This document shows, in pieces, positions 60,965-64,000 of a stretch of 64,000 bases of DNA (within the stretch, counting starts at the first letter, position 1; every line of letters starts with the position of its first letter). Source of the stretch: Rhodobiaceae bacterium (lineage in GTDB: Bacteria; Pseudomonadota; Alphaproteobacteria; RS24); NCBI GenBank assembly GCA_024645085.1, contig JAHEGN010000009.1, positions 1-64,000 on the forward strand, given 5' to 3'. The notes below the pieces were generated by a model. That model saw nothing but the letters and a program-made list of their open reading frames with translations, made no database searches and was not told where the DNA came from. Both the position numbers and the translations under genes were made by a program.

Positions 60965-61051
60965 GCGGTCGTGGCGGAATTGGTAGACGCGCAGCGTTGA
61001 GGTCGCTGTGGGGTAACACCCGTGGAAGTTCGAGTCTTCTCGACCGCACCA
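60965..61051 (+). tRNA. tRNA-Leu (GAG anticodon)
   Basis: The acceptor stem GCGGTCG (60965-60971) pairs with CGACCGC (61041-61047), with A and encoded CCA after it. The anticodon stem CAGCG/CGCTG closes the loop TTGAGGT, giving GAG. A long variable arm confirms a class II tRNA. It stands alone between cysH and a small membrane protein gene. Confidence 0.97.
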
Positions 61052-61166
61052 AGGCCTCTCTCCCCATATTATTTACCAACTGCCTTGTAAACGCCTCGCG
61101 CTTTATATTACCTTTTTTAACCGTCCGTGATGGGTCATGGGGGTAATGAAACAGAGAGGCACTTTG

Positions 61167-61532
61167 ATGAGCTTTTATTTATTTCTAATTGCAGCGGCGA
61201 TATGTTTTCTCAGCGCAGGCGTGCATGGCATATGGGGCAGAGGCGTATATTTGGGGTTTATTAGCAAGACCAATTTACCGATCCGCGAAAAGACCATCAG
61301 TGCCGTCACTTGGGACATTTTCACGATTATGTTGCTGGTAAGCGGCGGCTGTTTGGGCTTCGTCGCCTTCAACGCCCAAGCCATTTGGATGGCCTATCCG
61401 ATCATGTTGATAAATCTCCTGGGGGCAGGCGTGTTTTTTGCGATGATAGCCACGGGCCGAAAAGAACTTATTGCTTTGCCAGGCGCTTACTTAATGAGCG
61501 CTATTGGGGTTCTGACGCTATTGGCTGTTTAA
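61167..61532 (+). CDS. small four-helix membrane protein of unknown function
   Basis: Not recognised. 121 residues with four predicted membrane segments (about residues 2-20, 48-68, 72-95 and 102-121) and a short basic/polar loop (GRGVYLGFISKTNLPIREKT) between the first two. The ATG at 61167 is preceded by AGAGAGG; in-frame ATGs at 61137-61146 are less likely because they would add a charged tail before the first helix. It stands alone behind tRNA-Leu. The promoter may be TTGTAA with TATTAC near 61084-61110, but the spacing is short. Confidence 0.65.
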   Translation: MSFYLFLIAAAICFLSAGVHGIWGRGVYLGFISKTNLPIREKTISAVTWDIFTIMLLVSGGCLGFVAFNAQAIWMAYPIMLINLLGAGVFFAMIATGRKELIALPGAYLMSAIGVLTLLAV

Positions 61533-61672
61533 AATTCACGTCCCTTGCTTGCGCCGATACGAGGCTGTTGTGTTAGCGGCGCCCTTATCTGACGATTTTT
61601 ATAGAACTCCCGATGGTTTTTCGGTTACGCTCCCTTAACGCAATCAGAATGGTCGCTCCAGCGCATGGGACA

Positions 61673-61963
61673 ATGAAAATAAATAAACAGCTTCTCATAT
61701 TGCTTTTCGTAAGCTTTATCAGCGCCCAGCTGATGGCGGCCCTGCATATCGCCCAATATGGCGTTGGCGATCATCTGCATGATGGGCAATTTTGCCAAAT
61801 TCATTTGCAGCGCGAACAAGGCCATGCCGCCGCACCTGATGGCTTCGTCCTCACCATTCGCGCCGCCAGTTTTATTTGGCTGACGCCTACCCAACACCAG
61901 CAAATTGTTCTACCAAAACCCCACACCATTGCCGCGCCCCGCGCGCCGCCGCAGCTCTCCTAG
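61673..61963 (+). CDS. small exported His/Cys-containing protein, candidate metal-uptake accessory
   Basis: 96 residues. A hydrophobic N-terminal signal or anchor (about residues 5-22) is followed by HIAQYGVGDHLHDGQFCQIHLQREQ (a 25-residue metal-ligand-like patch; key residues His25, His34, His36, Cys41, His44) and a Pro-rich end reading APRAPPQL. The pattern resembles small periplasmic proteins of the DUF2946 kind found before metal-transport genes. It lies 58 bases before the porin-like gene. The start at 61673 is chosen because it begins right before the signal segment; the frame is open to 61613. Function is inferred. Confidence 0.55.
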   Translation: MKINKQLLILLFVSFISAQLMAALHIAQYGVGDHLHDGQFCQIHLQREQGHAAAPDGFVLTIRAASFIWLTPTQHQQIVLPKPHTIAAPRAPPQLS

Positions 61964-62021
61964 ACCCAAAATCACATTAACGCGCCGCCGAGTGGCTGGC
62001 GCCTCTGTCTAGGAGACAATT

Positions 62022-63383
62022 ATGCTAAATTTCAAAACAGCGGCCTCTGCCGCACTTATCGCTGTCCTATCGGCGTCACCGACGCTAGCCGCCGATGATG
62101 ACCTCACGGCTTTGCGCACTGAAGTTGAAAAAATGCGTCAAGCCTATGAGCAGCGCATTAATCAGCTTGAAGCCAAGCTCAATCAGCTAGAGGGCAATCA
62201 GGCGCAAGTCGGGGCTACCGCCAATACCCCGCCAGCAACCTCGCGTCGTCGTATTGCCGACAATCGTTTCAACCCCTCCATTGGCATGATTTTGAACGGC
62301 CAATTTAGCCAATATTCGCAAGGCGAAAGTGAAATTGCCGGGTTTGCCGTCAGCCATGAGGGCGAACGCGGCGAAGAGGGGTTCGGAATCGGCCACTCAG
62401 AAATCAGCCTGTCGGCCAATGTTGATGACAAATTTTTTGCCAGCAGCACAGTCGCCATTGTCGAGCATGAGGGCACCACTGAGACTGAGTTGGAAGAGGC
62501 CTATATTCAAACCCTGCCTGGCGCTGGCCTGCCAATTGGCATGAGCGTCAAAGCCGGGCGTGCCTTTTGGACTTTGGGTTATTTGAACGAACACCACAGC
62601 CATGCCGATGATTTTGCCGACCGCCCGCTGCCCTATCGGGTATTTATGAACCACGCCTATAATGATGACGGTTTGCAAGTGTCTTATCTCTTGCCGACCG
62701 ATATCTACGCCGAGATTGGCGGTGGCGTCTATCGCGGGGACGACTTCCCCTATGGCGGCAATAATGGCTCAGGAACCGGCGCTTGGTCGGCCTATGCCCG
62801 CATTGGTGGTGATGTTGGCGACAATCAAAGCTGGCGTGCCGGTGCTTATGTGCTCTCAGGCGAGGCTGAGACGTCGCGTTTGAGCAATGAGGATAGCGTC
62901 GGATTCACTGGCGACAGCGATTTGCAAATCATTGACCTGCGCTATATTTGGGCGCCGACTGGCAATGCCCGTGACCGCGAAGTGATTGTGCAAGCCGAAT
63001 ATTTTCAGCGTGAAGAAGATGGCGTCTATACGGTATTTGACGAACTCAGCGGCGACGTTTTAGCGACCAGCACGGTCAATGGCAAATCCGACGATGGTTG
63101 GTATCTCCAAAGCGTTTATAAATTCGCCCCACAATGGCGTGTCGGTGCCCGCTATAGCCAATTGATGAGCGACGCCACACCAGCGCCGCTGGTTGGCACG
63201 GGGCTGGATGCTCAGGGCCATGATCCAGAAGTTTTGTCATTAATGGTCGATTGGACAAATAGCGAGTTCAGCCGCTTGCGCTTGCAATTTAACCGCGAGG
63301 ATTTAAGCGGTGGCGAAACCGATGATCAGGCTGTGCTGCAATATGTCATGAGTATTGGTGCGCATGGGGCCCATAAATATTAG
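62022..63383 (+). CDS. outer-membrane porin-like protein of a metal-uptake locus
   Basis: 453-residue precursor with a signal peptide ending at about residue 23 (SPTLAA). A short coiled coil (about 27-60, heptads of Leu, Met and Ile, as in trimeric or LbtU-type porins) precedes a beta-barrel of alternating strands. There is no TonB plug domain. His-rich spots are NEHHSHADDF (about 190-199) and the C-terminal GAHGAHKY. An AGGAGA ribosome-binding site precedes the ATG. Its place directly before a ZnuA-like gene suggests it admits zinc or a zinc complex; LbtU-like siderophore passage is the alternative. Confidence 0.75.
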   Translation: MLNFKTAASAALIAVLSASPTLAADDDLTALRTEVEKMRQAYEQRINQLEAKLNQLEGNQAQVGATANTPPATSRRRIADNRFNPSIGMILNGQFSQYSQGESEIAGFAVSHEGERGEEGFGIGHSEISLSANVDDKFFASSTVAIVEHEGTTETELEEAYIQTLPGAGLPIGMSVKAGRAFWTLGYLNEHHSHADDFADRPLPYRVFMNHAYNDDGLQVSYLLPTDIYAEIGGGVYRGDDFPYGGNNGSGTGAWSAYARIGGDVGDNQSWRAGAYVLSGEAETSRLSNEDSVGFTGDSDLQIIDLRYIWAPTGNARDREVIVQAEYFQREEDGVYTVFDELSGDVLATSTVNGKSDDGWYLQSVYKFAPQWRVGARYSQLMSDATPAPLVGTGLDAQGHDPEVLSLMVDWTNSEFSRLRLQFNREDLSGGETDDQAVLQYVMSIGAHGAHKY

Positions 63384-63388
63384 GGAAT

Positions 63389-64000
63389 ATGATGCGTAAA
63401 ATTTTCACCACAATCGTGGCGGGGCTGCTTTTTGCAGTCCCGTTCACCGCTATGGCGCAGGTTAATATTTTGGCCTGTGAGCCCGAATGGGCGGCTTTGG
63501 CAGAAGAAATTGGCGGGCCCAAAATCAGCGCTTTTTCGGCCACACATGCGCGCCAAGATCCGCACCATATTCGTGCTCGCCCAAGCCTGATTGCCAAGGC
63601 GCGGCGGGCTGATTTAATTATTTGTTCTGGCGCGGGACTGGAGGTTGGTTGGCTGCCCATATTGCTGCAAAAATCCGGCCCGCAAGTTCAGCCCAATGCG
63701 CTCGGCCATGTGACCGCCTCGCATTATGTGCCGCTGCTCGATACCGGCGCCGGTGTGGATCGCAGCATGGGTGATGTGCATCCGGAAGGAAACCCGCATA
63801 TTCACCTCAACCCGCATCACATTTTGCCAATTGCGGCGCAAATAACCGACAGGCTAGCGCAACTCGATTCCGCCAATGCGGATTATTACCAAAACCGTTA
63901 CCAAGATTTCGCCCAGCGCTGGCAGCAAGCCTTGGCCCAATGGGAAGCCAAAGCCGCCCCCCTCAAGGGCACGCAAGTGGTGGTGCATCACAAATCCTTC
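63389..64000 (+). CDS. ZnuA-like metal ABC transporter substrate-binding protein (cut by window end)
   Basis: The first 204 residues are visible, with no stop before the window edge. A signal peptide (about residues 1-24, ending AMAQ) is followed by a cluster A-I fold: ILACEPEWAALAEEIGG, then ATHARQDPHHIRARPSLIAKARRADLIICSGAGLEVGWLP. The His ligands in DPHHIR and in HPEGNPHIHLNP fit zinc binding. The His-rich acidic loop of classical ZnuA is missing. Two ATGs (63389, 63392) follow TAGGGA. It lies 5 bases after the porin-like gene; permease and ATPase genes are expected beyond the window. Confidence 0.85.
   Translation, partial: MMRKIFTTIVAGLLFAVPFTAMAQVNILACEPEWAALAEEIGGPKISAFSATHARQDPHHIRARPSLIAKARRADLIICSGAGLEVGWLPILLQKSGPQVQPNALGHVTASHYVPLLDTGAGVDRSMGDVHPEGNPHIHLNPHHILPIAAQITDRLAQLDSANADYYQNRYQDFAQRWQQALAQWEAKAAPLKGTQVVVHHKSF

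Follow-up and report, generated by a model that had tools for sequence, protein, structure and literature searches.

To our knowledge, dedicated zinc import across the Gram-negative outer membrane has been described almost only as a TonB-dependent process. TonB-dependent receptors are barrels of 22 strands with a plug. A related arrangement is found in Vibrio: the genes of V. parahaemolyticus operon VP_RS21420-21430 (znuBII, znuAII and omr) are upregulated 283-, 543- and 1034-fold in zinc limitation (PMC9817125). For znuAII (vpa1307), described as a new subfamily of ZnuA, a deletion mutant grows poorly under TPEN, and the double mutation H69A/H148A abolishes the function of Vpa1307 (PMC3794297). 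In another V. parahaemolyticus strain, the role of znuAII is minor beside that of ZrgA (PMC9817125). The omr gene (VP_RS21430) was called a TonB-dependent receptor, and the same cluster is named in V. campbellii (PMC9817125). A porin with a role in zinc homeostasis is known from Mycobacterium smegmatis, where MspD is zinc-induced and ZUR-controlled (PMC13098993). Literature searches, which did not reach most subscription papers, turned up no account of a Gram-negative porin specific for zinc.

The locus described here lies at the end of a 64,000-nucleotide stretch of DNA (the window) from a Rhodobiaceae genome of 1.7 Mb (48 contigs, completeness 99.65%). The initial annotation had proposed a zinc-uptake locus of three adjacent genes, and all three open reading frames are present where it had placed them. 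The description as a triplet holds for the window, but the cassette extends past its edge with a fourth gene:

61673..61963, + strand: small exported DUF2946-like protein, 96 aa (ORF call; orthologue family)
62022..63383, + strand: porin, 453 aa, with a signal-like N-terminus (ORF call; 16-strand plugless model)
63389..64000, continuing to contig position 64300, + strand: ZnuA-like substrate-binding protein (SBP), 303 aa (PF01297)
contig 64290-65042, + strand: divergent ZnuB-type permease, ~250 residues (PF00950, 63.3 bits; cut-off 20.1)

The four genes are closely spaced on the + strand: the small protein comes first, followed by the porin, the ZnuA-like protein and the permease. The window edge falls inside the ZnuA-like gene. 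It had been suggested that znuB, znuC and zur be sought beyond the window, and that downstream genes for a siderophore or an unrelated solute would speak against zinc uptake. Directly downstream is instead an ABC-3 (ZnuB-type) permease. No znuC is part of the cassette; a ZnuC resides elsewhere in the genome (contig C21). No ATPase of any kind was found among the open reading frames of the source cassette, including those on the contig past the window edge. The gene after the permease is on the opposite strand, and its sequence looks like that of a flavin monooxygenase. A tRNA-Leu (gag) lies just 5' of the cassette region (window 60965-61051), and between this tRNA and the cassette (window 61137-61532) is a gene for a small membrane protein (131 aa) that matches no Pfam family. 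Within the family of the source genome, the cassette porin was found in the source genus only, which fits acquisition.

Linkage, regulation and the binding protein

When the porin alone was used as a query against the genome-contig set, 35 loci were recovered. The ZnuA-like gene follows the porin in 34 of the 34 evaluable loci, in which the contig continues past the porin, and the permease then follows the ZnuA-like gene where the contig allows. Further loci came from searching 398 genomes of the phylum with a porin profile, and the cassette is present at 27 of the 29 that were inspected with their flanks. Because these matches, about 60 loci in total, were found through the porin only and all but two of those that could be evaluated carry an adjoining ZnuA-like gene, the linkage is not due to chance, and the genome search proposed in the initial annotation thus bears out a conserved association of the families. 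Two porin homologues, in loci L128 and L131, are unlinked to a ZnuA-like gene.

Cassettes occur in Pseudomonadota, Thermodesulfobacteriota and Campylobacterota, and one (L037) is from a Desulfobulbaceae genome. A plasmid of Sulfurovum mangrovi (Campylobacterota) has the same order with two hypothetical proteins first, and its genes are annotated as "zinc ABC transporter substrate-binding protein" and "metal ABC transporter permease", with no ATPase. A cassette-related SBP-permease pair with no ATPase within 2.6 kb was also observed (L162 366-2113), in a genome (G076) that has a full cassette as well.

The ZnuA-like protein matches PF01297 with 104.9 bits (cut-off 29). As had been recognized from the sequence, it is divergent and carries no His-rich loop; the residues after H112 are YVPLLDTGAGVDRSMGDVHPEGNPH. 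The histidines at the ligand positions (H59, H137 and H201) are conserved across 36 sequences, as are H131, H231, C30 and C79. H68 and H147 of the V. campbellii SBP align with H59 and H137 of the window protein, and are within one residue of Vpa1307 H69 and H148. Of the NCBIfam models, AztC matches the SBP best, at 46.6 against a cut-off of 350 for the in-window part of the protein. In a quick tree, cassette SBPs together with two intermediates are split from 13 ordinary ZnuABC-like SBPs with 96% branch support, and permeases show the same split between cassette and ATPase-linked proteins with 99% support; branches in both trees are long, and their details are unsure. The SBPs of two cassettes from genomes inferred to be Vibrio-like (G238 and G308) fall within the cassette clade.

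Potential regulation of the cassettes was investigated with a Zur matrix derived from five Caulobacter Zur sites (PMC4176598) at a threshold of 13 bits. Operator-like sites occur in 7 of 62 regions upstream of porins, versus 16 of 1242 other 750-base tiles of the same loci (Fisher p = 5e-5). Clear sites precede L014, L028, L117 and L119, and the V. campbellii cassette (L154) is preceded by two sites in tandem. In L121 (2784-7789), a 23.7-bit Zur site is followed by a run of genes for DUF1826, an AztD-like zinc chaperone, porin, SBP and permease. The AztD-like protein scores 113.8 bits, under the curated AztD cut-off of 400, and this locus forms a natural bridge from the cassette to AztD. In L124 (3597-8652), a Zur site is ahead of genes for an SBP, small protein, porin, second SBP, AztA-like ATPase (92.8 bits versus the AztA cut-off of 220) and divergent permease. 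The L124 run adjoins a divergent ZnuCB, and is the only inspected cassette with an ATPase of its own.

No Zur box is found at the window cassette, in agreement with the initial annotation of the upstream gap, and a recognizable box is missing in most cassette relatives too. A scan of the whole source genome allowing up to one mismatch also revealed none, and the check for zur beyond the window came out negative: the genome has two FUR-family proteins, one of which is Fur-like (below cut-off) and the other Irr, and no Zur-type regulator was recognized.

A cassette with this anatomy might import another transition metal (Mn, Co, Ni or Cu) or a metal-chelate. PF01297 includes proteins that bind Mn and Fe, models of MntC/EfaA match the SBP weakly, and the source genome exhibits no sign of Zur control. 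In addition, DUF2946 genes are not confined to zinc uptake: one in Caulobacter precedes the Zur-activated efflux genes CC2720-26 (PMC4176598). However, the third metal-ligand position is histidine in all aligned SBPs, which is the zinc type (PMC12183173), and the Zur boxes of relatives, the AztD-like neighbour and the induction of the Vibrio operon in zinc limitation (PMC9817125) also argue against another metal. We regard a different substrate as unlikely. Zinc uptake as the function of the cassette, as originally proposed, is well supported: the genes stay linked across genomes, and what follows them is an ABC-3 permease rather than a siderophore gene. The Zur boxes of relatives, the AztD-like gene in one operon and the Vibrio publications (PMC9817125, PMC3794297) also back the assignment to zinc.

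The porin and the small protein

The window porin falls into no Pfam or NCBIfam family and has no match to a plug or TonB domain, and a search of PDB sequences with the porin profile gave no match. An AlphaFold2 model built on 32 homologues (mean pLDDT 83.2, pTM 0.77) has 16 strands and an N-terminal helix, which is probably a trimeric coiled coil. The best PDB matches of this model in Foldseek are OprP (2o4v, E 6.2e-13) and then OprO (4rjx, E 3.1e-12), followed by other 16-strand porins. In porins with 16 strands, loop L3 lines the constriction. The predicted features of the window porin are as follows:

62094..62207, + strand: N-terminal periplasmic helix, residues 25-62 (DSSP of the model)
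62568..62660, + strand: loop L3, residues 183-213, between strands 5 and 6 (strand count on the model)
62595..62603, + strand: HxH in L3, H192 and H194 (alignment; L3 placement from the model)
63363..63374, + strand: C-terminal HxxH, H448 and H451, at the periplasmic end of the barrel (alignment)

The model and the domain searches support a plugless porin of 16 strands as the outer-membrane component. The porin-like barrel without a plug described in the initial annotation therefore stands, as does, to the extent that the model is correct, its suggestion of a porin-type entry other than a TonB receptor.

The product of omr is described as a TonB-dependent receptor (PMC9817125), and the same could be proposed for the outer-membrane protein here; one relative's barrel does match PF00593, with E 0.03, below the cut-off. 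However, none of the cassette porins tested, among them those of the window and V. campbellii, matches the Plug domain (PF07715), and these proteins have 380 to 453 residues and 16 predicted strands, with folds closest to those of 16-strand porins. We therefore reject this identity for the window porin, which has no plug and 16 strands instead of 22, and consider a TonB receptor extremely improbable for the cassette. The V. campbellii porin is homologous to the window porin (31.5% identity over 83%, E 5e-45), and the V. campbellii gene at the omr position (L154) encodes a barrel homologue of 380 residues with no plug match. Judging from this counterpart, omr of V. parahaemolyticus probably encodes this plugless porin as well.

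H192, H194, H448 and H451 are invariant in a 32-row porin alignment. All four are retained in the copy from Campylobacterota and in divergent cassette porins, whose scores reach only about 55-84 bits. The HxH and C-terminal HxxH are both absent from the two homologues that lie outside the cassette (L128 4821-5843 and L131 4767-6053). In L027, L033 and L040, insertions rich in His, Asp and Glu map to the predicted surface loops L5 and L6.

These histidines might instead be structural or serve barrel assembly in an ordinary diffusion porin that is kept for its expression. Porins such as OmpF pass Zn2+ passively (PMC13098993), and the C-terminal histidines fall in the region of the barrel-assembly signal. 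Against such a role are the near-absolute linkage of the porin to a single SBP subfamily, the loss of the histidines in exactly the unlinked homologues (two cases), and the His/Asp/Glu-rich insertions in predicted surface loops. An ordinary porin seems to us an improbable explanation, and a dedicated porin remains the preferred one. No transport measurement on any member of this porin family was found in the literature.

We know of no function for DUF2946, the family to which the small protein appears to be related. The claimed small exported His/Cys protein is present as an open reading frame at 61673-61963, with an in-frame alternative start at 61613. It has a hydrophobic N-terminus, the H/C motif HLHDGQFCQIH and a C-terminal RAPP. 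Although no Pfam model matches the window protein, two tested orthologues score above the cut-off of DUF2946 (PF11162), with 32.2 and 28.6 bits, and the orthologue in L009 is just under it (23.0 bits; cut-off 23.7). A short open reading frame ending in R[A/G/D]PP is directly 5' of the porin in 46 of 60 evaluable cassettes, and 39 of these 46 contain CxxC or CxxH. The proposal of a dedicated small protein is therefore upheld as to its frequency, but the protein is dispensable: it is missing from cassettes L117, L119 and L154, which suggests that it is a helper and is not essential to the design.

Proposed mechanism and energy supply

We think it likely that these genes constitute a zinc-uptake cassette with its own TonB-free porin, SBP and permease. 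Upon zinc shortage, a dedicated porin of the trimeric type would be made, through which Zn2+ could cross the outer membrane without TonB. The HxH of L3 would attract or select zinc at the constriction, and the His/Asp/Glu-rich insertions in surface loops of some relatives may also attract and select it. The histidine pair at the periplasmic end could favour hand-over to the ZnuA-like protein, which would deliver zinc to the inner-membrane permease of divergent ZnuB type. For the small DUF2946-like His/Cys protein, the most likely role is that of a zinc-binding helper, located in the periplasm or anchored to the membrane, in either hand-over or barrel assembly. ATP could be supplied by an ATPase acting in trans, and the candidate in the source genome is the ZnuC of the ZnuC-ZnuB pair on C21. 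The zinc selectivity of the pore, the hand-over, the parts played by the histidines and by the small protein, and the ATPase or other source of energy are inferences.

The ZnuA-like protein of the cassette is the single PF01297 protein of the source genome, and no binding protein adjoins the ZnuC-ZnuB pair (L067 4265-5865; G000:C21:48764-50364). The second gene upstream of this pair resembles, in sequence, a PCu(A)C-type copper chaperone. PF01297 is absent from the tested genomes of the same family, namely eight from other genera plus G002 from the source genus. All but one of the nine nevertheless encode a PF00950 permease, giving a ZnuCB that has no recognized binding protein.

Six genomes (G275, G272, G418, G386, G346 and G420) have the cassette SBP as their sole PF01297 protein and the cassette permease as their sole PF00950 protein, barring marginal matches in G272 and G346. 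No ZnuC orthologue was found in these genomes in a screen with a threshold of E 1e-15, and the best ATPase matches, inspected in four of the six, are members of other families, for example LptB, LolD, NodI, LivF and PhnT-like proteins. Two possibilities follow: the cassette borrows an ATPase of an unrelated kind, or it manages without any.

If it works without one, the SBP and permease would form a binding-protein-dependent secondary or facilitated transporter, and no ABC importer. The lack of a cassette ATPase across about 60 loci, with the exception of L124, is consistent with this possibility, as are the six cassette-only genomes. However, the permease keeps the conserved segments of ABC-3 proteins near the ATPase-coupling loop, L124 couples a related SBP with its AztA-like ATPase, and a divergent ATPase could lie below the threshold of the screen or beyond the matches inspected. 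We consider an ATP-independent permease doubtful, and favour the borrowing of an unrelated ATPase over the use of none. A broader proposal, in which a zinc-selective OprP-like porin, an SBP and an ABC-3-derived permease, either ATP-independent or relying on a shared ATPase of another family, constitute a widespread, self-contained, TonB-free route, has in our estimation a slim but real chance of being correct.

If the preferred reading of a zinc-uptake cassette is true, a zinc-linked porin would represent a second route across the outer membrane, used by marine and other small-genome bacteria and by Vibrio. Its importance lies in a related Vibrio pore having been labelled a TonB receptor, and in the cassette having no ATPase of its own. 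It raises the question of whether a porin with a histidine constriction can select zinc, and, separately, what powers an ABC-3 permease that lacks a cassette ATPase.

Comparison with known systems

Several systems were rejected as matches. An ordinary ZnuABC operon is ruled out by the missing ATPase and by the separate SBP and permease groups. ZniCBA of Cupriavidus is an unrelated RND efflux system, ZniCBA of Rhizobium is an ABC-type importer that includes an ATPase of its own, and the zrpW and znuGHI genes of Caulobacter belong to other families.

The cassette resembles ZnuABC in its PF01297 SBP with three ligand histidines and its PF00950 permease, but differs in having no ATPase and no His-rich loop, in its separate SBP and permease groups and in having its own porin. 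Similarities to AztABCD of Paracoccus denitrificans include AztC as the best SBP match, the AztD-like protein of L121 and the AztA-like ATPase of L124. However, scores are far below the AztC and AztD cut-offs, AztA and AztD were not seen in the other inspected cassettes, and the Azt system, unlike the cassette, has no porin.

Among outer-membrane proteins, the TonB receptors ZnuD and ZnuK/L/M perform the same zinc step, whereas the cassette porin has 16 predicted strands and no plug. MspD belongs to the mycobacterial Msp family, which is unrelated to the cassette porin, and lies outside any such cassette. The phosphate porins OprP and OprO share with the window porin a predicted 16-strand, substrate-specific fold, but are only 12-13% identical to it, and cassette porins have conserved His, Asp and Glu residues. 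The Porin_O_P family (PF07396) does not match the window porin, and matches one relative with E 0.047.

The omr-znuAII-znuBII clusters of V. parahaemolyticus, V. vulnificus and V. campbellii are like the cassette in having genes for an outer-membrane protein, SBP and permease in this order, without an ATPase. Unlike the window cassette, they have Zur boxes, and no DUF2946-like protein was found before the porin. For Vibrio, both the SBP subfamily and its regulation by zinc are already known. What is new is the plugless porin partner, the histidine signature that is lost outside the cassette, the DUF2946-like helper, the consistent absence of an ATPase and the spread of the cassette over phyla.
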